A stretch of 64,000 bases of DNA. Source: Arenibacter algicola. Its GTDB lineage: Bacteria; Bacteroidota; Bacteroidia; Flavobacteriales; Flavobacteriaceae. Shown here one piece after another: positions 6,919 to 30,800 of the stretch. Numbering within the stretch: position 1 is the stretch's first letter; every line of letters starts with the position of its first letter. Position numbers and translations under genes: made by a program. The stretch lies in NCBI RefSeq assembly GCF_018860365.1, contig NZ_JAHKPO010000029.1, forward strand, positions 62,001 through 126,000, written 5' to 3'. The notes below the pieces were generated by a model. It was not told where the DNA came from, made no database searches, and was given only the letters and a program-made list of their open reading frames with translations.

Positions 6919-7038
6919 GTAGTTCCGTTAAACGGCCTTTTTATGGGTCAGTTTTGAGGCTCCTGATATTCTTTTATCTAAATGTCCCATTCTTGGTCCT
7001 TTTTAATAGTTTCGCTAATTAACCTTTTACGGAACTAC
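6919..7038. repeat. Inverted repeat pair upstream of the serine recombinase
   Basis: GTAGTTCCGT (6919-6928) and its exact complement ACGGAACTAC (7029-7038) lie 100 bp apart in the gap between the ATPase and recombinase genes. The left arm overlaps a small perfect hairpin CCGTT-A-AACGG (6925-6935). Paired inverted repeats just upstream of a serine recombinase are often its crossover sites or the ends of a mobile unit. No further support is visible. Confidence 0.45.
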
Positions 7039-7141
7039 ATAAGTATATTTAAATGACCGTATTATTAAACTTTCATTTTTCTTGGTTAATAACTCCTAGT
7101 AAGTTCATTTTTCCGGTATAGTTTTCTAGTTTAATTTTAGA

Positions 7142-7155
7142 GGTATAATTATACC
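7142..7155. promoter_or_regulatory. Perfect palindrome in the recombinase leader, candidate operator
   Basis: GGTATAATTATACC is a perfect 14-bp palindrome ending 3 bp before the ATG of the serine recombinase. A dimeric DNA-binding protein, possibly the recombinase itself, could bind here and control its own expression. The position also covers the expected ribosome-binding region. Confidence 0.4.
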
Positions 7156-7158
7156 ATT

Positions 7159-7839
7159 ATGCTATTTGGTTACGTAAGGGTAAGTACTAAAACCCAAAAT
7201 CCCAATTTACAGATTGATGCCCTTTTGAAAGAAGGAGTTTCTGAGCGGAATATCTATCGAGATGTTTCTTCTGGGGCCAAGGCCGAGCGCCATGATCTGG
7301 ATTTGATGATTTCTAAACTAAGAGAAGGAGATACAGTTATTGTTTGGAAACTAGATCGTATAGCGAGGAGTATTTCACATTTATTAAAATTAGTAGATCA
7401 GTTTGAAAGTCTAGGAGTTAGATTCAAAAGCATTAATGACCCCTTCATAGACACGACATCTGCCCATGGTAAATTTATAATTACACTTTTTGGAGCTGTC
7501 GCTCAATTGGAACGAGATATCATAATCGAGCGCACTACCTCAGGTCTTAAAAGTGCTCGCAGGAGAGGTGTACAATTGGGTCGTAAAAAGGGTTTAGGTA
7601 AAGAATCTAAACAAAAGGCCATGTTAGCTGCCTCGTACTATCAAGAAAATAAACTTCCGATAGTAGATATTATGAAGTTGGTAGGAATAAAATCAAAACC
7701 TACCCTTTATAAGTATTTGGCGATTCAGGGAAGGAGAAATTGCAAAGTATGTGGCGAGGTGTTTTGGGACGAAAAACAGGAACTAGAAAGCGCATTTTGT
7801 AAAAGGCATTTAAATATAAAACCAGACTTTAAAAAATAA
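7159..7839 (+). CDS. Serine recombinase (resolvase/invertase family) with C-terminal zinc ribbon
   Basis: A 226-residue small serine recombinase. Residues 1-140 form the catalytic domain: YVRVST with Ser9 as the expected nucleophile, VWKLDRIARS with Arg67 and Arg70, and the AQLERDIIIERT segment leading into the long E helix. A helix-turn-helix spans about 150-190. Unlike standard resolvases it then carries a CxxC...CxxH set (Cys195, Cys198, Cys214, His217) that looks like a zinc ribbon. It sits at the left of the repeat-bounded cassette array and right after the metal block, and is the only recombinase in the window. It could resolve or invert DNA, or drive movement of the array; the last is inference. 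Confidence 0.9.
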   Translation: MLFGYVRVSTKTQNPNLQIDALLKEGVSERNIYRDVSSGAKAERHDLDLMISKLREGDTVIVWKLDRIARSISHLLKLVDQFESLGVRFKSINDPFIDTTSAHGKFIITLFGAVAQLERDIIIERTTSGLKSARRRGVQLGRKKGLGKESKQKAMLAASYYQENKLPIVDIMKLVGIKSKPTLYKYLAIQGRRNCKVCGEVFWDEKQELESAFCKRHLNIKPDFKK

Positions 7840-7841
7840 TT

Positions 7842-9311
7842 ATGGGTTTTGATATTCTTCTCCTCTGGGATAGATTATTAGGGAAATGGGAAACCAAGTC
7901 TGGATTTGGCATAGGCCTTATTTTATTATTTTTTTTGTATTTCTCTGTTTTAAATTATTTTGATATTGAATCTTTCATGATTCCAATTTTAAAGTATTTA
8001 GTCTTTCCCCTTATACTTGCACTATTGGTATTTATTTTTTGGGTTAGTACAACCAACCGTTTTTTTCTAAAATTTTCTAATAAGATTTATACAGGAGTCA
8101 TAGTAGTTCTAGATGATGACAGAGATCGGTTAGTTGTCAATAAAATAGTCGGAAAAGTGATAAACCAGATTAACAAATCTGCTGAATTCCAGGATGGTAT
8201 CCAATTGAAATTATTACCCTCAAATTTTTGCGTTCATGAATCTGAGATTAACAGGTATCATAATAATTTCTATTTCATGTACGACTTGATTATTAGGGTT
8301 TTTGTAGAGTCTGGAAATTACGAATCAATAGAAAAGATCATTGTGGAAAGGTTTTCAGTTACTTTCACACGGAAATCTCCAACATGGAAGAAGAGAATTC
8401 TTTATAATACTATTGATTTAACCCAAGATATGAACTTACTCGTTGGGGCCCGAAACTGGCAATATTTAATTTCAAATAGCGGTATTGATAAGAAAAAATA
8501 TTTGGCCAATTTTCATAATATAATAATTTATTATGTCGTGTTTTACGCTATATACTCAGATAGATATGAAGATGCCCTCAACATACTGGCAAGAGTATTT
8601 GAGCCCAACAATACAATAGTTAAGATTAGTAGAAAAGAGGAGAATAGTGTTACCCTAGAACTTCAACCTTTTAATTTAGCAGAAGCACGACTTTCCACAA
8701 TTTTGGTTGATTTGTTCTTTGATTCTGCGATTAAGAGTTATCACCAAAAGGATATTCCAAAGGCTATTAGTCGACTTGAACAACTTGAAAAGTTAGTGAA
8801 AGTTCACAACCAAAAGTTTGATTTATTTATCAATATGGCGAGATGGAATTATGAATTGGGAAACGTTGATAAAGCTGTCAATTACACCGAACAAGCAAAA
8901 CTCATTGACCCTAAAGCAATTCAAATCTATTTAAATTTGGGTTTTTTCGCAATACTTCAAAACAACGTAACTGATTTTTGCATTAATTTTAAGAAGCTAT
9001 TCGAAATGCGAAATAATCCAGTGATCAACTGGGTTGACGTAATTGATTTTCAATTGAAAGAGCAAGAAAAAATGCCTACTAAATTGCCTTTTTTTAATTT
9101 CTCAATTTCATTTATAGAATATATTTTCATTGATGAATCGAATAAATCAAAATTTAAAAATACAGTTGCTGAATACAAAGAAAACGACGAATATGCGTGT
9201 ATTTTTAAACTTGGATTACATGTGCTTTCGCAACCATATCTCAAAATGGAAACTAATCATCATTTGAACAAAAAACATAGTGGGAACAAGAAGAAAAGGC
9301 GGAAACGCTAA
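7842..9311 (+). CDS. Membrane-anchored TPR protein of unknown function
   Basis: A 489-residue protein starting 2 bp after the recombinase stop, so probably co-expressed with it. Two hydrophobic helices near the N-terminus (about residues 22-40 and 46-68) anchor it. A middle region of unknown fold follows, then helical TPR-like repeats (about 300-400; motifs such as LEQLEKLV, WNYELGNVDKAV, YLNLGFFAI). The tail is very basic (NKKHSGNKKKRRKR), which could contact nucleic acid or membrane. No family is recognised. Confidence 0.6.
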   Translation: MGFDILLLWDRLLGKWETKSGFGIGLILLFFLYFSVLNYFDIESFMIPILKYLVFPLILALLVFIFWVSTTNRFFLKFSNKIYTGVIVVLDDDRDRLVVNKIVGKVINQINKSAEFQDGIQLKLLPSNFCVHESEINRYHNNFYFMYDLIIRVFVESGNYESIEKIIVERFSVTFTRKSPTWKKRILYNTIDLTQDMNLLVGARNWQYLISNSGIDKKKYLANFHNIIIYYVVFYAIYSDRYEDALNILARVFEPNNTIVKISRKEENSVTLELQPFNLAEARLSTILVDLFFDSAIKSYHQKDIPKAISRLEQLEKLVKVHNQKFDLFINMARWNYELGNVDKAVNYTEQAKLIDPKAIQIYLNLGFFAILQNNVTDFCINFKKLFEMRNNPVINWVDVIDFQLKEQEKMPTKLPFFNFSISFIEYIFIDESNKSKFKNTVAEYKENDEYACIFKLGLHVLSQPYLKMETNHHLNKKHSGNKKKRRKR

Positions 9312-9617: not shown

Positions 9618-9635
9618 AAAGTTCAAATTAAGGTT
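9618..9635 (+). repeat. Array repeat R1
   Basis: AAAGTTCAAATTAAGGTT, differing from the consensus AAAGTTCAAATAAAGGAT at two positions. Ends 17 bp before the ATG at 9653. Confidence 0.7.
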
Positions 9636-9652
9636 ATATAAATACAAGGAAG

Positions 9653-9907
9653 ATGGAAAACAAACCAAAAGATTTTACTCCAACTGAGTTTATTGAAAAG
9701 GGAGAAAATTTAGTTATGGATAGAAAGCAAGAGAATTTTTATTTAGTTAATGAGGTCGAATATGATTCAGCCAAAAGTGAAGATCAAATCAATTGTGAAA
9801 TTTTGTATTTTATAGAGTATCAGGAAAGTATTAAGTATTTTAGGCATGAACCTAAACTCTTTGATAAGTTGCAACGCGGGAAACTTCAAAGTGTGCTTCT
9901 TCAATAA
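9653..9907 (+). CDS. Small hypothetical protein, cassette gene
   Basis: An 84-residue acidic soluble protein with no recognised family. It starts 17 bp after repeat R1 with AAGGAAG as ribosome-binding site, and its TAA stop (9905-9907) touches the first base of repeat R2. The gene is therefore exactly bounded by two repeat copies. Confidence 0.5.
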   Translation: MENKPKDFTPTEFIEKGENLVMDRKQENFYLVNEVEYDSAKSEDQINCEILYFIEYQESIKYFRHEPKLFDKLQRGKLQSVLLQ

Positions 9908-9924
9908 AGTTTAAATAAACGATG
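9907..9924 (+). repeat. Array repeat R2
   Basis: AAAGTTTAAATAAACGAT. Overlaps the stop of the gene before it and contains the first bases of the ATG (9922) of the gene after it. Confidence 0.8.
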
Positions 9925-10572
9925 GAAAGCAAAAGATTATCTCAAACATTTTCTTGTGGGCACTGTTCAAATATTGCCGCTATGGAAAGTATTGGTCATA
10001 TATTTAAAGACTCCAAAAAAGAAGATAGCCATGATCCATATCCGGCACCTGAAGAAGGATATTATTATGATGTTCTAATTTGCCCTGCATGTACCCGTGA
10101 AAATATTGTAAAATACTTCTGGCATGACTTCATGGAATCTGAGGAAGATGTTAGTTATGAATATTTATATCCTATAGATAATGATATTCCCTTAGGACTA
10201 CCAAATGAGATTAAACTGGCGTATAAAGCTGCGCAAAAAGTTAAGCTTATAGATCCAAACTCTTATGCCTTATTAATTAGAAGACTCTTGGAACTTATTT
10301 GTTTTGATAGAGAAGCTGAGGGATCGTTTTTGTCTAAAAAATTAAAACATCTTGCTGATAAGGGAGAAATACCCGAAAAACTTGTTAAGGTTGCAAAAGG
10401 ACTTAGGCTATTTGGCAATATTGGAGCACACGAGCGTGGTGGTAGCTTAAGTGAAAAAGAAATACCTATTCTAACCAACATGATTAAATCGATTTTGGAG
10501 TATATATATACGGCCCCTCATTTGGCCGAGTTAGCCGAGAGGAAATTAAAAGAAATTGAAAAGTCTAAATAA
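9922..10572 (+). CDS. DUF4145 domain protein with N-terminal zinc ribbon
   Basis: A 216-residue protein. Residues 11-14 (CGHC) and about 57-60 (CPAC) form a likely zinc ribbon. The C-terminal helical part (YALLIRRLLELICF, about 113-126, and GLRLFGNIGAHERG, about 161-174) matches DUF4145, a domain often fused to restriction or nuclease modules and also found alone in mobile DNA. The ATG lies inside repeat R2 and the TAA stop lies inside repeat R3, so both ends of the reading frame use repeat bases. Function unknown; a role in nucleic-acid defence is possible. Confidence 0.7.
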   Translation: MESKRLSQTFSCGHCSNIAAMESIGHIFKDSKKEDSHDPYPAPEEGYYYDVLICPACTRENIVKYFWHDFMESEEDVSYEYLYPIDNDIPLGLPNEIKLAYKAAQKVKLIDPNSYALLIRRLLELICFDREAEGSFLSKKLKHLADKGEIPEKLVKVAKGLRLFGNIGAHERGGSLSEKEIPILTNMIKSILEYIYTAPHLAELAERKLKEIEKSK

Positions 10573-10577
10573 AGGAT
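10560..10577 (+). repeat. Array repeat R3
   Basis: AAAGTCTAAATAAAGGAT. Supplies the last codons and TAA stop (10570-10572) of the upstream gene; its AAAGGA lies 5-10 bp before the next ATG (10581) as a Shine-Dalgarno-like sequence. Confidence 0.85.
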
Positions 10578-10948: not shown

Positions 10949-10966
10949 AAAGTTCAGATAAAGGAT
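10949..10966 (+). repeat. Array repeat R4
   Basis: AAAGTTCAGATAAAGGAT, one mismatch to consensus, 11 bp after the VOC gene stop. About 70 bp of leader follow before the next ATG (11039). Confidence 0.85.
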
Positions 10967-12483: not shown

Positions 12484-12501
12484 AAAGTTCAAATAAAGGA
12501 T
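12484..12501 (+). repeat. Array repeat R5
   Basis: Exact consensus copy AAAGTTCAAATAAAGGAT, 20 bp after the hydrolase stop. Confidence 0.9.
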
Positions 12502-13122: not shown

Positions 13123-13140
13123 AAAGTTCAAATAAAGGAT
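13123..13140 (+). repeat. Array repeat R6
   Basis: Exact consensus copy, 21 bp after the GNAT gene stop. Confidence 0.9.
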
Positions 13141-13757: not shown

Positions 13758-13775
13758 AAAGTTCAAATAAAGGAT
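13758..13775 (+). repeat. Array repeat R7
   Basis: Exact consensus copy. It is preceded by a longer shared stretch (CTCCTATGAAAAG and CCAGTTCTCT) also found before R8 and partly before R11, and followed by a perfect hairpin. Confidence 0.92.
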
Positions 13776-15805: not shown

Positions 15806-15823
15806 AAAGTTCAAATAAAGGAT
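15806..15823 (+). repeat. Array repeat R8
   Basis: Exact consensus copy. The GTG start of the next gene is one base after its end. The 40 bp before it closely match those before R7. Confidence 0.92.
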
Positions 15824-16317: not shown

Positions 16318-16335
16318 AAAGTTTAAATAAAGGAT
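16318..16335 (+). repeat. Array repeat R9
   Basis: AAAGTTTAAATAAAGGAT, one mismatch to consensus, starting one base after the GIY-YIG gene stop. Confidence 0.88.
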
Positions 16336-18952: not shown

Positions 18953-18970
18953 AAAGTTCAATTAAACAAT
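18953..18970 (+). repeat. Array repeat R10
   Basis: AAAGTTCAATTAAACAAT, four mismatches to consensus, 13 bp after the WD40 gene stop. Confidence 0.6.
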
Positions 18971-20101: not shown

Positions 20102-20162
20102 TATACTTGAGAAAAAAAACCCATAACAATGTATCTTAAGAGAAGTATTAGTCTAGTTCTCT

Positions 20163-20180
20163 AAAGTTCTAATAAAGAAT
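20163..20180 (+). repeat. Array repeat R11
   Basis: AAAGTTCTAATAAAGAAT, two mismatches. The 15 bases before it (AGTCTAGTTCTCT) match those before R7 and R8. Confidence 0.8.
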
Positions 20181-20439
20181 CATTTAAAGTCCGTAACGGA
20201 ACTTTCACTGCTATTCATACGTAGGCATGCTTAGGTCTATATGCAGGGTATCATCAATAGTGATATTCATTTGTTGGGGGCAAGCCTTTTAGGACAGTAA
20301 ACAATAAAAAGTTAAAGGACATATTTGACAGGGCAATTCTGAGACACTGATTTGCCTTCTACAACCATGACTAGGACTTCTCAATTGAAATGGACTCTGC
20401 TGAAACAGCTACAACCGTAAAAGTAAATTCGAACCAACT
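20181..20439. other. Long leader after R11 with a hairpin
   Basis: About 260 bp without an ORF. It starts with a near-perfect palindrome (20187-20206: AAAGTCCGT, A, ACGGAACTTT) whose ACGGAACT also occurs in the inverted repeat at 7029. AAAAAGTTAAAGGAC near 20308 may be a damaged repeat copy. Confidence 0.4.
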
Positions 20440-21148: not shown

Positions 21149-21166
21149 AATGTTCAAATAAGGGAT
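21149..21166 (+). repeat. Array repeat R12
   Basis: AATGTTCAAATAAGGGAT, three mismatches. Only 55 bp separate its start from that of R13. Confidence 0.75.
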
Positions 21167-21203: not shown

Positions 21204-21221
21204 AAAATTCAAGTAAGGGAT
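21204..21221 (+). repeat. Array repeat R13
   Basis: AAAATTCAAGTAAGGGAT, three mismatches. Its last two bases are the start of the ATG at 21220. Confidence 0.72.
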
Positions 21222-21748: not shown

Positions 21749-21766
21749 AAAGTTTAAATAAATGGT
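21749..21766 (+). repeat. Array repeat R14
   Basis: AAAGTTTAAATAAATGGT, ending exactly before the ATG at 21767. Confidence 0.75.
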
Positions 21767-21976
21767 ATGTTAGAAGATGGTTTTAGGTCGCATAGATATA
21801 GCGATATATTGGGCAACTTAAGGGAGAATGGTTTTCTGAACGTTGAGGATGTTAGTAAGCTGCTAAAAGAATTTACAAGTACAAAAAAAATTACTTTTGC
21901 TTGCATAAGCAATGAAAAAGCCAAAATAGTTTCAGAAGCATTGATTGATAACTATAATCGACAAAAGTCTAAATAA
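21767..21976 (+). CDS. Small hypothetical protein, cassette gene
   Basis: A 69-residue charged helical protein of unknown function. Its ATG follows repeat R14 with no gap and its last codons and stop (QKSK then TAA) are made from repeat R15. The smallest clear cassette of the array. Confidence 0.5.
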   Translation: MLEDGFRSHRYSDILGNLRENGFLNVEDVSKLLKEFTSTKKITFACISNEKAKIVSEALIDNYNRQKSK

Positions 21977-21981
21977 TCATT
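21964..21981 (+). repeat. Array repeat R15
   Basis: AAAGTCTAAATAATCATT. Gives the stop (21974-21976) of the gene before it and lies 3 bp before the GTG start after it. Confidence 0.72.
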
Positions 21982-22436: not shown

Positions 22437-22454
22437 AAAGTTCAAATAAAGGAT
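22437..22454 (+). repeat. Array repeat R16
   Basis: Exact consensus copy, 14 bp after the thioesterase stop, followed by the same hairpin as R7. Confidence 0.92.
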
Positions 22455-23691: not shown

Positions 23692-23765
23692 AGGTGTAAC
23701 AAGTGATATAAGATCAGACTTGCTATCGCTGCGTCCACTACATATCACCGATACGTTGAAAGTTT
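23692..23765. repeat. attC-like imperfect inverted repeat after the Fic gene
   Basis: Between the Fic stop and R17, AACAAGTGATAT (from 23700) and ATATCACCGATACGTT (to 23757) form an imperfect palindrome with AAC and GTT at its outer ends and a 7-bp GTGATAT/ATATCAC core. This resembles the general plan of integron attC sites, but most cassettes of the array are too tightly packed to hold one. Confidence 0.35.
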
Positions 23766-23776
23766 AAAAAAAGGAT
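23759..23776 (+). repeat. Array repeat R17
   Basis: AAAGTTTAAAAAAAGGAT, two mismatches, 10 bp before the ATG at 23787. Confidence 0.8.
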
Positions 23777-23786
23777 TATCAAGAAC

Positions 23787-23975
23787 ATGAGATATAAAGT
23801 TGCTCAAGGCATAATAAGCTTTGTTATTCTTACATTAGTTGGTTGCACAAAAGAGGAAGAATGTACAAGGATTGATAAAATTGGTGGTGGATTATTGCAC
23901 GAACAGGAAATTGAAGTCCCATGCGATTTTCCGGAGCCCAAACCCTTAGGCACGCTTCCAAATCAAAAAATCTAA
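23787..23975 (+). CDS. Small hypothetical lipoprotein
   Basis: A 62-residue peptide with a lipoprotein signal (LVGC, Cys20) and a short mature part with two further Cys. No family recognised. Single gene between R17 and R18. Confidence 0.5.
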   Translation: MRYKVAQGIISFVILTLVGCTKEEECTRIDKIGGGLLHEQEIEVPCDFPEPKPLGTLPNQKI

Positions 23976-24001
23976 ATTGGGGTGAAGTAATCCCGAAACA
24001 T

Positions 24002-24019
24002 AAAGTCTAAATAAACGAT
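24002..24019 (+). repeat. Array repeat R18
   Basis: AAAGTCTAAATAAACGAT, three mismatches, 5 bp before the ATG at 24025. Confidence 0.8.
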
Positions 24020-24024
24020 ATTAC

Positions 24025-24336
24025 ATGACCATAAAAAGAACCAATCATATAATTCATGATGATGAAGTTGAAATAGATTCCTTTCAATTGCAAATAATGT
24101 TTGGTCCTTCATATAAAGAGGACATAGAAATTGCGGTGAACTCTATATTTTGTAATTGTGGTGCCCAAAGTAAAAAGTTGGTCAACTATAAAAGTTATCT
24201 AAATAACCTTAATGACGTTATTTTAAAAGGGTTGTGCAATTCTTGCAATACCTTTGCCGCAAGATATATCGAGACGGGAGAGCGCAAGGGCATCGAGAAA
24301 ATCGCAAACCGAATCAGAAAATTAAACAAAGCTTAA
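24025..24336 (+). CDS. Hypothetical protein with zinc-finger-like cysteines
   Basis: A 103-residue protein with CNCG (about residues 47-50) and CNSC (about 75-78) that could form a zinc site, and a basic C-terminal helix. No family recognised. The gene ends within 2 bp of repeat R19. Confidence 0.5.
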   Translation: MTIKRTNHIIHDDEVEIDSFQLQIMFGPSYKEDIEIAVNSIFCNCGAQSKKLVNYKSYLNNLNDVILKGLCNSCNTFAARYIETGERKGIEKIANRIRKLNKA

Positions 24337-24352
24337 AATTCAAATAAAGGGT
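24335..24352 (+). repeat. Array repeat R19
   Basis: AAAATTCAAATAAAGGGT, two mismatches, overlapping the stop of the gene before it. Confidence 0.78.
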
Positions 24353-24661: not shown

Positions 24662-24941
24662 TTTATCTGCAAGGGCACAATATGACCTAGTGGGTATGTA
24701 TAAGTACGGAATAAAGTTTTTTGGCCCTGACCAGGCGACCAAGTACTTACTCGATCTGGAAGGTTTTTTGGAAGAACTAGCTGAACGACCAGAATTGGCC
24801 AAAGATGCCTCGACAATTGCCGATTCCTTAAAATATTTCAGTTATAAAGCCCATGTAATTTTTTATCAATTTCACAATGCAAACGAAATTTTTATTATCA
24901 GGATTTTGGGCAAACGCATGAACTTCATTGAACATTTATAA
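24648..24941 (+). CDS. Type II toxin, ParE/RelE superfamily
   Basis: A 97-residue protein with the ParE/RelE fold pattern: YSLSARAQYDLVGMYKYG at the start, a DLEGFLEELAERPELAKDA helix pair and the closing FYQFHNANEIFIIRILGKRM. By its pairing with ParD it is expected to poison DNA gyrase, though RelE-like action is possible. The stop touches repeat R20, the last of the array. Toxin-antitoxin pairs at array ends are known to stabilise cassette arrays. Confidence 0.88.
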   Translation: MGNYSLSARAQYDLVGMYKYGIKFFGPDQATKYLLDLEGFLEELAERPELAKDASTIADSLKYFSYKAHVIFYQFHNANEIFIIRILGKRMNFIEHL

Positions 24942-24957
24942 AGTTTAATAAAATGAT
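24940..24957 (+). repeat. Array repeat R20 (last copy)
   Basis: AAAGTTTAATAAAATGAT, a weaker copy overlapping the toxin stop and the start codon of the next reading frame. It marks the right end of the array and the return to ICE backbone. Confidence 0.6.
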
Positions 24958-25203
24958 GAAAGACCAAAAGGGCATATTGATAAAATGCATCAAAAATGAT
25001 GTCCCGGCGTTCGTGACTGTCGGTCACGATTTATTTACCGTGCCAACTTGGAGGCCTATTATCAGGTCGCAAAGGAAAACGGGGCGGATACCGAGTTTTT
25101 GAAGGACATGAATCTTGTCGTACAAGAAATAAAAGATTTTCAAAAGCAGGAACCGGATAGGGTACGCATACCCAAGCTAAAAGCGTTCGAGATCGAAAAA
25201 TAA
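24954..25203 (+). pseudogene. Frameshifted ICE backbone gene
   Basis: The frame starting ATGATG encodes about 32 residues (GILIKCIKNDVPAFVTVGHD) to near 25047 and then leaves frame. In the next frame a coding-like sequence runs on (LEAYYQVAKENGADTEF to LKAFEIEK) to a TAA at 25201-25203. Adding one base at 25047-25050 (ACTTGG to ACTTTGG) restores one continuous protein of about 83 residues, so a 1-bp deletion has broken it. It resembles a small conserved protein of unknown function often seen next to the alpha-CTD-like and radC genes of flavobacterial ICEs (from memory). Confidence 0.7.
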
Positions 25204-25210
25204 AAAGAAC

Positions 25211-25546
25211 ATGATCACTTACTATGAATTTTTGGAAGCCCTATCCACCATAAGAAAATTCAAGAAACAAGTTCCTCTCCTTTATAAGGAAATGGAAGAG
25301 GAGGTCAACTTGATATCCAAATTTGTCAACGTTGACAAGAACACCAAGATCTGCCAATTGCCGTTGTCCACCCGGGCATTGAACGTATTGAAAGCAATAG
25401 ACCATATCGACATATGGGAAGGAACGACCCAGGACTTGGCCAAGCTCTCGATGAAGAAACTTTTGGGCACCAAGAATGCAGGAAGAAGAACTGTCGACGA
25501 GATAAAGGAACTTTGTCTGTTCGCCAATCTGCAAATGAAACCTTAG
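25211..25546 (+). CDS. Free-standing RNA polymerase alpha-CTD-like protein
   Basis: A 111-residue protein. The second half (LPLSTRALNVLKAI, then DLAKLSMKKLL, then AGRRTVDEIKELC) matches the helix-hairpin-helix C-terminal domain of RNA polymerase alpha subunit, the part that binds UP elements and activators. The dimerising N-terminal domain is absent and is replaced by about 45 residues of helix. Such a protein could act as a transcription or DNA-binding factor of the ICE, or compete with host alpha-CTD. It lies 7 bp after the broken gene. Confidence 0.75.
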   Translation: MITYYEFLEALSTIRKFKKQVPLLYKEMEEEVNLISKFVNVDKNTKICQLPLSTRALNVLKAIDHIDIWEGTTQDLAKLSMKKLLGTKNAGRRTVDEIKELCLFANLQMKP

Positions 25547-26193
25547 CACATTAACCTTCTAGCCAAACTTTCAGCAGTTCTTTTGCTACATGTAATAGTT
25601 CTATTGAATTTACATTTGTAAATATGTAAATTATTCCCAATCCCAAACTTACTTGCCATCATTTCCATTTAGGAAACTTTATCTCTATTTTTTTTATTCT
25701 TATCATTTTTTCCATTAAAAAGACAACCATTTTGACCCTCTACTAGCAAGATATCCATTTGATATATGCAAAAAAAGGACATCGGTTCGAGTTAGCGTGT
25801 AACATGAACATTGGGATTCCGCACTTGCGTAATTTTTCAGGACTAAGGGATCGACTATGGGCGGAATCGTCCTAATATCAATATTTTATGGTTACAATTA
25901 ATTTCTATACCGATCTAACTGGGTTCGTTTTAAAAAGGGAATCGAACTCTTCCAAAATGATCTGGGAGTTTCTTATTTATTAGGGTAGGTGCCAGCCTAA
26001 AAATTCATTTTTCATACTTATGCCGCAATTTAATCAAGCCGCATTTGCCCTGTCCATGTAGTATTTGAAAAAATGGGGTATCCCTCCTGTCGGGGGAGCC
26101 CACCACAATTTTTTAAAATCTCCACATGGACTTATCCCCACCGCTACGCTCCTGTTGATTTTTTTCGCCGCATAATCTTAAAAACATACTATT
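25547..26193. other. 647-bp structured non-coding region
   Basis: No credible ORF. Two nested inverted repeats are visible: GATTCCGC (25815-25822) with GCGGAATC (25861-25868), and AGGAC (25839) with GTCCT just after. A GC-rich hairpin-like part (CCCTCCTGTCGGGGGAG) lies near 26086. This may be a regulatory RNA, a replication start or a transfer-related site; nothing decides between these. Confidence 0.4.
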
Positions 26194-26655
26194 ATGAAAG
26201 ACATTCGAATCGCAACCTTTAAAGATTTCGTTGGAGAGCTAACGGCCATTTACAGGAGAACAGAACTACCCACTTTTCAAATAACCTCTTCGAGTTCCGT
26301 GAGAGAGTTCATTTATCCATATTTTGACGATGTAATGGACGATCACGAAGAAGTGAAGGTCATACATTTGAACCGTAAAAATCAGGTGGTGAACATACAC
26401 CATCTAACATCTGGCACCGATAACGGTTGTCTCATTTCGACAAAGGATGTGCTGCGACATGCCATCCTGATCAAAACAAGCTCCCTGATCCTGGTTCACA
26501 ACCATCCATCTGGCAATCTGAAACCTTCAGAAGCAGATAAACAGATCTCCAACAAATTGAGGGAAGCCTCTAAGTTGGTGGACATATCAACCCTTGACAG
26601 TATAATAATCACCAGGGAGGGATATTACTCCTTCGCAGATGAAGGGCTTTTTTAA
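26194..26655 (+). CDS. RadC-like JAB-domain protein
   Basis: A 153-residue protein of the RadC/JAB family. The metal site HNHPSGNLKPSEAD (about residues 107-120) is the JAMM-type HxHPSG...D motif. The helix-hairpin-helix part of housekeeping RadC is missing, which is normal for the short forms carried by ICEs and prophages, where they are thought to help against host restriction or in DNA repair. Its stop lies inside a hairpin. Confidence 0.9.
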   Translation: MKDIRIATFKDFVGELTAIYRRTELPTFQITSSSSVREFIYPYFDDVMDDHEEVKVIHLNRKNQVVNIHHLTSGTDNGCLISTKDVLRHAILIKTSSLILVHNHPSGNLKPSEADKQISNKLREASKLVDISTLDSIIITREGYYSFADEGLF

Positions 26656-26662
26656 GTCCTTC
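26641..26662 (+). terminator. Hairpin overlapping the radC stop
   Basis: GAAGGGCTT, TTTT and AAGTCCTTC form a 9-bp stem with one G-T pair and a 4-base loop, followed by a weak T-rich stretch. It covers the last codons of the radC-like gene. Confidence 0.4.
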
Positions 26663-26703
26663 ATTTTGATTAAAATATATAATTTAAATTGTACGCTTTT
26701 AAG

Positions 26704-26711
26704 TACTTTTG
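26704..26711 (+). promoter_or_regulatory. Possible -7 element of the small gene at 26738
   Basis: TACTTTTG matches TAnnTTTG and lies 26 bp before the ATG. A good -33 TTTG at the normal distance is not seen. Between it and the ATG, AAGTTCAAAAATC recalls the first half of the array repeat. Confidence 0.35.
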
Positions 26712-26737
26712 TAATAAGTTCAAAAATCTATACCACT

Positions 26738-26932
26738 ATGGATTATAAGTTTGTACCCCTAAGAAATTGGTTGTTGGAACGGGAAGCTCTCTCTATTAGG
26801 AAGTTGGAGGACAACTGTAAAATGCCAAGGGATACCCTACGCCATTTCCTGAATGAACGAAGGGACTTTCCGGAAAGGCATTATGAATCTTTATTAAAAG
26901 AGTTGGTAAAGTATGGGTTTCATCGGGATTAA
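26738..26932 (+). CDS. Small DNA-binding-like protein
   Basis: A 64-residue protein from the ATG at 26738; an upstream in-frame start would overlap radC and is unlikely. LLEREALSIRKLEDNCKMP and TLRHFLNERRDFPERH look like a helix-turn-helix with a short tail (residues about 10-45). Possibly a small regulator of the ICE. Confidence 0.55.
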   Translation: MDYKFVPLRNWLLEREALSIRKLEDNCKMPRDTLRHFLNERRDFPERHYESLLKELVKYGFHRD

Positions 26933-27292
26933 ATCCTCTACTTAAGAATTTAAAGAAACAAAACCCTAAAGCCAGAGCCATGAGGCCAAACAGGGCAACA
27001 GGTGTTACACTAAAGGGTTTTTGTAAATTTATGGAAGTTTAATTAAATGAAGATATAATTAGTGTTTTAATGATTGCCATACCTACGCTCATAATATTTA
27101 TCTTTATGCAAAGGTCTAAAACATGTTCTTATGAAATGAGCCATGAAAATTCTTGATATCAACCGAAATCGAAGATTCACGAACTCCAAAATTTAAAATA
27201 AAAACTCGTGAGTACATGATTATTGGCGAATTACACCCGCCTGAATGAAGTAGTCGGGCAGGTCTGACCTTTTAAAAACAAAAAAATAACAG
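26933..27292. other. 360-bp intergenic region
   Basis: No gene seen. ACAAAACCCT (about 26957) and AGGGTTTTTG (about 27015) could pair as a long-looped terminator for the small upstream gene. The remainder is AT-rich. Confidence 0.35.
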
Positions 27293-27778
27293 ATGAAAAT
27301 TATTACTAATGTTTTTCTCATTTTTTCTATTTTGATATTTTTTGCATGTAGTAATGATAATGATAATCTTTCAGAATCGGACAAGGCTCAAGCCTTACTG
27401 GGCCAATGGGAATATCAATCTATTATGACCGATAGGGCAGTGGATATCAATGGCGACGGCACCTCAAATATAGATTTGTTCAATACACAGGAAATCAAAC
27501 AATGTATCAAAGATAATTTGACCTTTTTTGCTGAAAGGGGAGAAGGCGAGAAAGGTGTTTATAACATTAACGAGAACGGGCTTGCTTGTGATGGAAATCA
27601 AGCTTTTACTACGATAGAAACCGACACTTATCAACTCGTAAACAATAATCGTATCGTTTTTGAAACACGAAATGAAATGAAGATAATGGAGTTTACCAAA
27701 AATAAACTTGTGGTAGAGACCCAGGATAATCTTGGCGGCACCGATGTTTTGGTAACCATTATTCTCAAAAAAAGTTAA
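27293..27778 (+). CDS. Lipocalin-like lipoprotein
   Basis: A 161-residue lipoprotein (lipobox FFAC, Cys19). GQWEYQSIM near residue 38 and the later strands are like the lipocalin-like domains found in many Bacteroidota lipoproteins. DINGDGTSNIDLFN (about 51-64) looks like a calcium-binding loop. It faces the tra operon tail to tail. Function unknown. Confidence 0.6.
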   Translation: MKIITNVFLIFSILIFFACSNDNDNLSESDKAQALLGQWEYQSIMTDRAVDINGDGTSNIDLFNTQEIKQCIKDNLTFFAERGEGEKGVYNINENGLACDGNQAFTTIETDTYQLVNNNRIVFETRNEMKIMEFTKNKLVVETQDNLGGTDVLVTIILKKS

Positions 27779-27810
27779 TTCCCATAATGGTTCTTATGTT
27801 ACCTTTTCCT

Positions 27811-30800
27811 TTAGACTCTTATTATTGACCCCCTTACGGTATTACTCCATTGTCCATTACTGTCCTGTACCCTAACCTCATAATCTTGGTCTAGATACTT
27901 AAGTCTATTCTCTCTGGGTTCTTCCTCTAGTTCAAAATAACGTTCAACACCCGTTCCTCTGGCGTCATTGTAATTGAATAGCATTGTATCCCATCTTCTA
28001 TCATCAATGTTGTAAATACGAACCTCCACCTGTTGTAAAGTAGCACCGTTGTACGCTTCGGAACAATTTGCAGCAAAACAGGTATATATCCGAACCACGT
28101 AGTCACAGCCATTTAGACCACCACATCGTATATTATGCTTCTCTCCTTTGACGGCTGCTGTGGGCTTTTTAAGCATTAATATCGATTCACTGGTGGTCTG
28201 TGATATGCCGGTTGAATTCTCGACACGGAAATTAATAGTAAAACTGTCGTCGATTTGTGGATAAAACTGCATCGCAACAGACCCGTACTCCAGGGGAATA
28301 ACCTCACCTTCCCTATATATCTTTCCCTGATGGTTTATATAACCCCCATTCATATCGGCGAATTCAAATGTCATTTGGTACATGACAGTTGTATCGTGTC
28401 CAGAGGCGGCATTTGTGACCACATTCAATAGGAAGGGTTGATTTTCATATTTATCTTGGGTTGATTGGCCGATAGTAAGATCAAAAAATTCTTCATACTT
28501 TTCAAAATTGATATTTACATCTGCTGTTTTTTCAACCTCTGAAGATGATCTGACCGTAAACTCAATATTATGGTTGGATTCAGATATACCAGTATACCTT
28601 CCCTGGAAAGAGCCAACTGGAACGTTAAAACTTTCACCTGCCGCATAAGTATTGCCTTGAAATTCAAAGCTACCGTTGCTGCCTCCGGATGAAAAATACA
28701 TCACATAGCTATCTCCTCCGATGCCCAATTCGGTAATATTGAAATTAATATCTACAGTTTCTCCAATATAAACCTGTGATTGTGTCGCATTTGCTGTAAA
28801 ATTATAATTCTTTGGCGTTACGCCGATGGATATGGTAACCGTTTTTTCCAGACCGGTATCGTTTTGAACATAAAAGGTTAAATTGATATTGCTCTCGTCG
28901 GTACCTTCCAGACTCCAGTTGAAATTTCCTTTGGGAATATCATAAATATTTCCTGCACTCACTTCTGTGCCATTTTCATTCCTAATAAGGGCATTGCCGT
29001 TTGAGCTATATCTGATATTATATTCTGAAGAACCAATACTTTCCGAAATGTTGAAGTTAAGCGAGGTGATCTCCCCGACTGAAATATCTGTTTTTTGACT
29101 TCCACCTGTGAACAGAAAATCCACTTGGTTGTAGTTCACCATAGTATTCGCAGTATGAGTCACATTTGCACTTGACTCTACACTCAGAACTATATCATGC
29201 TGACCAGCTTGGGTACCAGTATAGACTACATTATTGTTATTTGGTACAAGTTGAAATTTTTCGCCTGGTCCGTATTCTATTCCGTTTACTCGAAGTGAAC
29301 TATTTCTGCCGGATGAATAAAAGGCTTCATAAGTATCATTGGTTCCTTCAGGTATTTCATTGATGTCAATAATTATATCTACTGGTAAATTTGCAAACTC
29401 GGAAGTCTTTGACGGGGTCATACTCAATGTAAAATCGTTCTGTTTAGTTTCAAGGTCAATATTGACCGGCCCCACTTCCTGACCGTAATTGTCGGTTACA
29501 ATAAATGAAATTTGGTGCGAACCTAAACTTTCTGGATAATAAAAAAGTGAAAAGTTGCCAAGTTCCACTGGATAGCCTGTTGAGTTCTGTAGGGTGTTGT
29601 CATGGATCCCGGTCAGCCTTCCGTTGCCCTCCACAATTTCATAGGAAATATTGTAATCTATATTCTCTGTGTTGCCATTGGATTTAATATTAAAATTGAG
29701 TTGAGTACGCTCATTTAAAAAAACTGAATTGCTTTCTGAATTACCGGAAAAAGTAAATGGGATGTTCGCCACCTCGATTTCAACGCTGTCCTGTTTTATC
29801 TGTCCGTTGGAATCCCTCACATCAAAGAATATTGTCCGTTTTCCCAGTTCAGTACTCGTAAAAGTGAAATTGTAGGAATTGGGAATTATAGGCCTAAATT
29901 TACCTGGATCCATTACGCCACCGTTCTGGTCGCGCACGATACCTGCACCTTCGCTAGTAGATGAAAAGGAATGGGTAATTTCATATGCTACGTCAGATTC
30001 TTCGTCTTGGGTCCTCAGATCTATGGCGACGGCCAAATTAGTATTCAATTCCACTTGGGTCGATGCAGCAGTGGCATTAATTGTAAAGCCGAGGTTAAGT
30101 ACAGTAATAAGAAGAACCTCGGTCAAGGTAGCACCATCAGGAGCTTTGGCCGTAACGATTAATTTATGTTCGCCCAAGGTATCTGGAAGGTATCCCATCT
30201 CTGAAATTCCTTTTGGTAAGTTAAATGGCTTTCCAGCGTCAAAGGCTTCTTCTTTCAAATAGAGTTTCCCGGTTCCATTTTCTATCTGATACCTTATTTC
30301 AAATTCCCCTTTATTATCGGGGTTTTCAGTTTCCTTATCCCTAAGTAGTGTAACGTTCACAGGATTCTTGGAATTGATGATAAAATCGTTGACCCCTTTG
30401 TTTAGCAAAAAGCTAAAACTGGCGTATTTGGCATAGTGCAATAGTTCCAATTTTTTCTCCCTGGCATTTGAATCCCAAGCAATGAAGTTAATTTTATGCA
30501 TGCCAGTATCGATGGCTACATAATTATATGACCACTGCTTGTCTATAATGTTCAGCGTATCATTCTCAAGGATAGTATCGCCTAACATGTTCATGAAGTA
30601 TCCTTTGCCATTCAAAGTCGTAAATCGCGCATAATAATGAACAGTACTTATTTCTTTTTCAGGAACAATTGAAAATAAAGTTTTGGCACTTTCAAAAACG
30701 AAACTGGTTTCAGGCTGTTCAATGGAGAAATCAAAATCAAAATCATCCAAAATTATATCCTCAAAATCCTTGCTACAAGCAATGATAAGCACTGATATTA

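Follow-up and report, generated by a model that had tools for sequence, protein, structure and literature searches.

Which enzyme moves the genes that lie between copies of an 18-bp repeat in a 64,000-nucleotide stretch of the Arenibacter algicola genome (family Flavobacteriaceae; contig NZ_JAHKPO010000029.1, positions 62,001 to 126,000; here, the window)? A preliminary description had named the serine recombinase at the left border of the repeats as the candidate driver of this array. The linkage of a recombinase clade to such arrays and a copy of the array half-site in front of the gene lend support to that proposal. To judge from the loci compared, the window very probably holds an integron-like cassette system that is based on a small serine recombinase and not on a tyrosine integrase. 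The comparison shows (i) that a sharply bordered 18-bp site separates co-oriented, mostly single-gene cassettes and that one recombinase clade heads such arrays in many genomes, (ii) that cassettes recur with new neighbors and that whole blocks are found or missing with both ends precisely at sites, and (iii) that a leader containing the array half-site marks the left edge of the recombinase module. L and G numbers denote compared loci and genomes, respectively, G000 being the genome of the window.

The recombinase clade and its arrays in other genomes

The cassette array extends from position 9618 to position 24957 on the plus strand. Copies of the 18-bp repeat (AAAGTTYAAATAAASGAT) were scored with a matrix derived from 83 sites, found in the window and in genomes with repeat clusters; 18 copies reach a score of at least 14 and 2 are weaker. 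All 20 matches above 9.5 lie on the plus strand, that of the recombinase, while shuffled sequence gives 0.008 match per kb and strand above a score of 8. The recombinase (226 amino acids [aa]; PF00239; E value, 3.5e-41) is encoded by an intact open reading frame (ORF) at 7159 to 7839 on the plus strand and thus sits left of the array, as described before. It is also the sole recombinase of the window: the genome has no other PF00239 or PF00589 match within this span, and the closest tyrosine recombinase on the contig (C18:57704) lies beyond it.

The protein consists of a resolvase catalytic domain, a long E-helix, a C-terminal helix-turn-helix (HTH), and the zinc-ribbon tail (CxxC...CxxH) that the preliminary description had pointed out. 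Among 41 aligned sequences, R7, S9, R67, R70, and E124 are invariant and R44 and D66 are conserved in more than 90%; together with the PF00239 match, the invariant R7, S9, R67, and R70 provide the serine and arginines of the resolvase catalytic domain. The predicted model (pLDDT, 83.8) displays the order of small serine recombinases, i.e., an N-terminal catalytic domain, a long helix, and a C-terminal HTH, and its top PDB match is gamma-delta resolvase (1gdt; E value, 6.7e-15; 36% identity). The protein scores far below the cutoff of the IS607 family model (27.1 against 110 bits).

A protein search and a repeat-pattern search each covered 199 genomes of the family. Where a close recombinase is present, repeat clusters lie downstream of it on the same strand; with closeness set at an E value of 1e-55 or better, at least three pattern matches were present in four of six such genomes versus 5 of the 193 others (P = 2.9e-5). 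Most genomes with a match in this search (52 of 61) contain no more than two, about as many as a reversed control pattern gives. Seven pattern matches in viral contigs include no relative, and plasmids and phages contain relatives only at less than 60% identity.

The matrix was then applied to a named-genome set, the best 80 of 223 relatives. Four of these 80 loci (L071, L098, L110, and L125) are apparently the same places as loci sampled earlier. The set comprises 53 recombinases of the clade, of which 46 are followed by 3 kb or more of sequence, and 27 serine recombinases from outside it, of which 24 are. Sites were found downstream of 37 of the 46 clade recombinases and of none of the 24 others (Fisher P = 1.1e-11), and 229 of 229 downstream sites are on the recombinase strand. 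On the upstream side, 30 sites occupy the leader position, two others are on the minus strand, and one is on the plus strand. Locus L131, which has a nonclade recombinase, carries seven sites on its upstream side, on both strands, the head of the array lying beyond the contig.

In a tree of 87 proteins, 51 array-linked rows (those with one or more downstream sites or with a leader score of 9 or higher) group with three long zinc-ribbon rows without an array in a single clade (99/82), and all other rows fall on the other side of this split. The check proposed in the preliminary description, i.e., whether homologs adjoin the 18-bp repeats elsewhere, is therefore answered by the contrast in downstream sites and by a single clade in the tree. 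The alternative considered there, a resolvase that belongs to a known transposon as a fixed part, does not apply to this gene. A genus control gave a similar picture: 18 Arenibacter genomes yielded 24 recombinase matches, from which 20 places were compared. All four array-type recombinases (51% class) have arrays and leader sites, and the other 16 serine recombinase loci, which belong to other classes, have no site in 284 kb.

The zinc-ribbon pattern is absent from 12 of the 51 array-linked rows, one of which (L097) stops at a contig edge; the tail is therefore not what ties the enzyme to the array. As a cause of the link it was rejected, since the subclade without the ribbon has arrays and leader sites, and it is also contradicted as a determinant by zinc-ribbon rows without an array (L115, L139, and L142). 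L115 and L139 to L142 represent an Arenibacter zinc-ribbon subgroup of 283 to 291 aa with a long extra C terminus and neither an array nor a leader site.

G000 has a second, small array on contig C11 (L001, 16448 to 17065; L002, 1170 to 1402), which has a tyrosine recombinase at its far end. The gene at its head encodes a recombinase from the other subclade and is interrupted by one stop codon.

Sites, cassettes, and cassette mobility

Site 1 of the window, the first after the recombinase (9618 to 9635; score, 18.9), has the overlap TT, and the AT of site 2 (9906 to 9923; 28.0) starts the ATG of the ORF at 9922. Farther along the plus strand lie sites 3 (10560 to 10577; 25.1), 4 (10949 to 10966; 24.7), 5 (12484 to 12501; 30.0), 6 (13123 to 13140; 30.0), 7 (13758 to 13775; 30.0), 8 (15806 to 15823; 30.0), 9 (16318 to 16335; 27.4), and 10 (18953 to 18970; 21.7). 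Site 11 (20163 to 20180; 17.3) precedes a FISUMP-domain cassette, and sites 12 (21149 to 21166; 16.7) and 13 (21749 to 21766; 14.8) are each followed by a weak, degenerate site (21204 to 21221, 11.4, and 21964 to 21981, 9.9, respectively). A Fic/DOC cassette (PF02661) comes after site 14 (22437 to 22454; 30.0), and site 15 (23759 to 23776; 24.7) begins a two-cassette block common to L161. Site 16 (24002 to 24019; 25.6) is next, and site 17 (24335 to 24352; 16.6), with the overlap GT, precedes a ParD/ParE toxin-antitoxin cassette (PF03693 and PF05016). Site 18 (24940 to 24957; 15.9) is the final recognizable site.

Across loci, information is restricted to positions 1 to 18 of the site (345 array sites), except for a weak preference at positions 19 and 20 that is due to ATG starts. 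Positions 17 and 18 are AT in 406 of 429 array sites, and because the leader dyad (see below) is centered there, the overlap is placed at these two positions. A second arm was not seen in array sites, where the matches amount to 4.5 of 16 as against 4.7 expected by chance. Conserved classes of upstream sequence, such as ATGAAAAGCC or AATCCCGC, were considered as attC arms and rejected, being common to some sites only.

The 280 gaps between sites have a median length of 602 bp. Of 198 gaps (120 to 1,500 bp, with a longest ORF of at least 80 codons), 194 have that ORF on the array strand; the median coding fraction of the cassettes is 0.90, and the stop codon lies a median of about 13 bp ahead of the next site. 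In 56 of the 194 cassettes the start codon is formed by the AT of the site and the next G, and an ATG occupies positions 17 to 19 in 118 of 336 sites (P = 3e-16 versus base composition). Because the cassettes are densely packed with coding sequence, most of them probably have no promoter of their own and are read from upstream.

The cargo of the window includes DUF4145, glyoxalase-like, hydrolase, weak GNAT, GIY-YIG, YceI, WD40, regulator-propeller, FISUMP, Fic, and ParDE genes as well as unassigned ORFs. For a broader view, 120 ORFs drawn at random from the 155 cassette ORFs listed in named loci were scanned against Pfam and PADLOC. They match 60 Pfam families; among the 25 families listed, which include Abi_alpha, ParE, Fic, APH, beta-lactamase, and methyltransferases, none matches more than two members and none is an immunity family, and the cargo is mixed. 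The same ORFs match 39 PADLOC models, many of them being candidate defense genes.

A block that is present or absent is seen in L160 (G211) and L164 (G206), which represent the same locus. L160 contains a 5,757-bp block from site to site, with further sites in it, that is absent in L164; the flanks are 99% identical left of the site (5609 in L160 and 7359 in L164) and 97% identical from the site onward (11366 and 7359). L081 and L086 have two stretches in common (737 bp, 99.5%, and 747 bp, 96%) that end in sites and occur in opposite order. Cassettes of the window likewise recur elsewhere: that at 9618 to 9906 has a 96% identical copy in L143, the FISUMP cassette is also found in L131 (82%), that at 21749 recurs in L060, L143, L144, and L146 as well as in L002, the second array of G000 itself, and the two-cassette block (23759 to 24335) is also present in L161 (97%).

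Divergence next to the recombinase, right after the first site, is seen in three groups of related genomes. L076, L077, L078, and L082 are 94 to 96% identical up to that site and then continue with four different cassettes, and the same divergence is seen among L083, L085, L086, and L089 and in the pair L081 and L092. In contrast, L090 and L091 share proximal cassettes and differ beyond them. For matches outside the recombinase, alignments end at sites in 10 of 32 cases on the left and 6 of 31 on the right, with about 3 expected on each side; the enrichment is only moderate because this test mixes cassette matches with unrelated repeats.

The leader site and other motifs upstream of the recombinase

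The preliminary description had drawn attention to several motifs in front of the gene and had overlooked the real leader site (7040 to 7073, minus strand), a dyad-symmetric element that marks the left edge of the recombinase module by its conserved position and by a drop in identity. On the minus strand it is composed of a first half-site, AAAGTTTAATAATACG (7073 to 7058), the overlap GT (7057 to 7056; AC on the plus strand), and a second half-site, CATTTAAATATACTTA (7055 to 7040). One half of the leader site is the array repeat. Two inverted arms around a 2-bp overlap are thus seen at the leader, whereas array sites have one arm only.

Of 54 loci, 46 have an inverted site with a positive score, which lies roughly between −103 and −110 relative to the start codon (at −121 in one of the 46). 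Its consensus is AAAGTTYAAWWAAACG, followed by a 2-bp overlap and a second arm that resembles CGTTTAAATATACT. The overlap letters at these 46 loci are GT (36), AC (7), GC (2), and AT (1), and the second arm agrees with the inverted first arm in 8.1 of 16 positions, compared with 4.5 for random sequence of the same loci. Matches from module to module start between −125 and −95 in 64 of 105 cases, with a peak at −107/−106. Between the window and L060, identity is 98% inside the boundary set by the leader site and 49% outside it. Several loci, mostly of the subclade without the zinc ribbon, have an additional inverted copy near −24.

Between the leader site and the ATG lies the 14-bp palindrome GGTATAATTATACC (7142 to 7155). 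As had been stated, it is perfect, and it is conserved before the closest relatives, but it is not rare, as the window contains 11 such palindromes; it is probably an operator or promoter element. The 10-bp inverted repeats reported upstream also exist (GTAGTTCCGT at 6919 to 6928 and its reverse complement at 7029 to 7038), but they do not belong to this recombinase. They were rejected as its sites because positions 6983 to 7041 (plus strand), which include the right arm, are left over from the leader of another serine recombinase: over 59 bp this segment is 86% identical to such a leader elsewhere in the same genome (G000:C19:493576-493634). At about 7 of 54 loci (the window, L059, L061, L077, L115, L143, and L146), leader motifs from another class of serine recombinase are seen in the DNA left of the module, which looks as though the module tended to lie next to or within such elements.

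The core ACGGAACT was said to be shared with a palindrome at 20187 to 20206 inside the array. It occurs six times in the window (both strands), the interval from 20150 to 20260 contains no perfect palindrome of at least 10 bp, and the core has no relation to the system.

Proposed exchange, rival explanations, and known systems

We think it probable that these elements are a convergent counterpart of integrons in marine Flavobacteriaceae, in which a serine recombinase would capture, shuffle, and delete promoterless cassettes through a one-armed, double-stranded site whose overlap doubles as an ATG start, while a two-armed leader would keep the module in place. The recombinase would bind the half-site AAAGTTYAAATAAASG and cut at the adjoining AT, and strand exchange between two such sites would excise a cassette as a circle or insert one, preferentially at the first site beside the recombinase. 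In array sites the second arm appears to be arbitrary cassette DNA, which implies one-sided recognition. The leader, with both arms and a different overlap (GT or AC), would be barred from recombination with the array and may additionally serve autoregulation. Where the AT overlap contributes the first two letters to the start codon of the following cassette, as it often does, genes would stay joined to a start.

That exchange takes place at the AT, at the right end of the 18-bp site, is inferred from the distribution of differences between related sites. Position 15 differs in 2 of 36 pairs with common upstream DNA only and in 16 of 39 with common downstream DNA only (P = 0.0003, the pairs not being independent). 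With each site used once and positions 1 to 16 pooled, 19 of 352 and 48 of 368 letters differ, respectively (P = 0.0005). The 16-bp arm therefore mostly stays with the upstream cassette, as expected for exchange at the AT. In G184, a repeat is fused into the recombinase gene at codon ~119, the joint being the end of the repeat, which fits exchange there. A crossover at the center of the 18-mer, suggested by the pseudo-palindrome GTTYAAATRAAC, was rejected, because the right-hand positions mostly track upstream DNA and the leader dyad is centered at 17 and 18.

A number of observations weigh against this scheme. (i) Known small serine recombinases use two-armed sites, and the array sites have one arm. 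(ii) The contrast at position 15 is not significant when each site is used once (2 of 22 versus 7 of 23; P = 0.13), and the sites at 24335 in the window and at 9498 in L161 share upstream DNA and yet differ at positions 4, 10, 15, and 17. (iii) Nine of the 46 clade recombinases that are followed by 3 kb of sequence have no site in it. (iv) Some arrays lack a neighboring recombinase: G120 has 37 pattern matches and no PF00239 match, only a 95-aa remnant; small clusters occur in G164, G177, and G037, where the search threshold gave no serine recombinase; and one Arenibacter array locus, in G203, G206, G210, and G211, has no adjacent recombinase. Array-type copies exist elsewhere in the genomes of G203, G206, and G211, and there is none in that of G210. 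(v) Tyrosine recombinases stand at the far end of two arrays (L002, 1503 to 2792; L020, 14672 to 15916).

The last two points would suit a different arrangement, in which another enzyme, such as a tyrosine recombinase in trans, moves the cassettes and the serine recombinase is a hitchhiker or acts only at its own leader. The two tyrosine recombinases at array ends are related, and such enzymes are present in all nine genomes tested. We nevertheless consider this explanation unlikely. In the locus comparison the serine recombinase clade recurs at array heads and no other gene family did so, the leader site includes the array half-site, and in G120 the nearest tyrosine recombinase is ~65 kb from an array. 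Arrays without a recombinase are also known from integrons, and those described here look like them. The empty site in the recombinase-less locus of L160 and L164 would mean action in trans.

It is very improbable that the 18-bp repeat is an expression signal, i.e., a ribosome-binding or promoter element, and not a recombination site: the repeat often ends in a start codon and includes an AAAGGA-like sequence, but strong copies concentrate in tandem arrays, homology breaks at the repeat, one cassette carries differing upstream copies, gains and losses of blocks run from one site to another, and the recombinase module is bounded by an inverted copy. Least credible, and in our view hardly worth retaining, is a divergent ordinary integron with an unrecognized integrase, for which the repeats would serve as attC sites. 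Such an integron would share the architecture of co-oriented single-gene cassettes, toxin-antitoxin cassettes, and chromosomal arrays, whereas here conservation ends at 18 bp and thus gives no sign of folded attC arms, array heads have no tyrosine integrase, and the linked enzyme is a serine recombinase.

With gamma-delta/Tn3 resolvase and the Gin and Hin invertases, the recombinase has in common the catalytic domain, the E-helix, the C-terminal HTH, and a leader of two arms with a 2-bp center. However, those enzymes resolve or invert one fixed segment, whereas the arrays described here are open-ended, their sites are one-armed, and one subclade has a zinc-ribbon tail. IS607-type transposases are serine recombinases as well; they have low target specificity and an N-terminal DNA-binding domain, whereas the enzyme here has the domain order of small resolvases.

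Integrons are the textbook gene-collecting platform and rest on one family of tyrosine recombinases and on folded attC sites. The likeness to them lies in a single recombinase gene, in a recombination site within the leader region, and in a downstream, co-oriented, mostly single-gene array, and further in unrelated, often unknown cassette functions, toxin-antitoxin cassettes, and arrays without a recombinase, as in the chromosomal integrons of Vibrio. The tandem, co-oriented, mostly single-ORF cassettes that characterize integrons are also found here, given the 194 of 198 ORFs on the array strand and the median spacing of 602 bp. The differences are that the head enzyme is a serine recombinase and not the tyrosine recombinase IntI (the window has no PF00589 match), that an 18-bp site (a 16-bp half-site plus the AT overlap) takes the place of a long folded attC, and that the leader site points the opposite way and has a different overlap. 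The head enzyme does not fit the published definition of an integron (PMC8618304). The rAID array is headed by a predicted tyrosine recombinase (PMC12247911). Arrays of the rAID type combine this enzyme with orphan immunity genes, whereas the arrays studied here combine a serine recombinase with mixed sampled cargo.

By its anatomy, the system would work like an integron without being a member of that group, and we propose the name serine-recombinase cassette array. No prior description of such an array was found in the open-access PMC literature, and work beyond it could exist. If the proposal is true, a second platform with unrelated chemistry and a short site would mean that cassette capture evolved more than once, and it would explain why marine flavobacteria have a pool of small mobile genes, of which some resemble defense or toxin-antitoxin genes. 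It would also raise the mechanistic question of how a serine recombinase dimer acts where only one arm of the site is conserved. To find such arrays in any genome, the 18-bp sequence is a simple handle.

Between the recombinase and the first array site, the window has a gene for a membrane TPR protein (7842 to 9311, plus strand). It starts 2 bp past the recombinase stop, as had been noted, but it is locus specific and not a conserved partner of the system: tblastn over all loci then compared gave a match only in the window's own locus, and the gene was rejected as a partner on this ground. In G080, both arrays (L018, 16148 to 17152; L020, 3375 to 4379) have a near-identical gene of 334 aa directly after the recombinase, in contrast to the TPR gene found in the window. 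Among the clade members, L103 (Cytophaga sp. FL35) and L063, a 3.7-kb contig of an Oleispira metagenome-assembled genome, have records with names from outside the Flavobacteriaceae; the latter is short and may be misbinned. The right flank of the window's array (25202 to 30000, with an RNA polymerase alpha-CTD-like gene and RadC) is the array locus common to five Arenibacter genomes (L159, L160, L162, and L164). The ATPase of the left flank is found on other contigs than the array locus in G203, G206, G210, and G211 and ~1 Mb from the matching flank in G200, and these separate positions of the flanks hint at a rearrangement.

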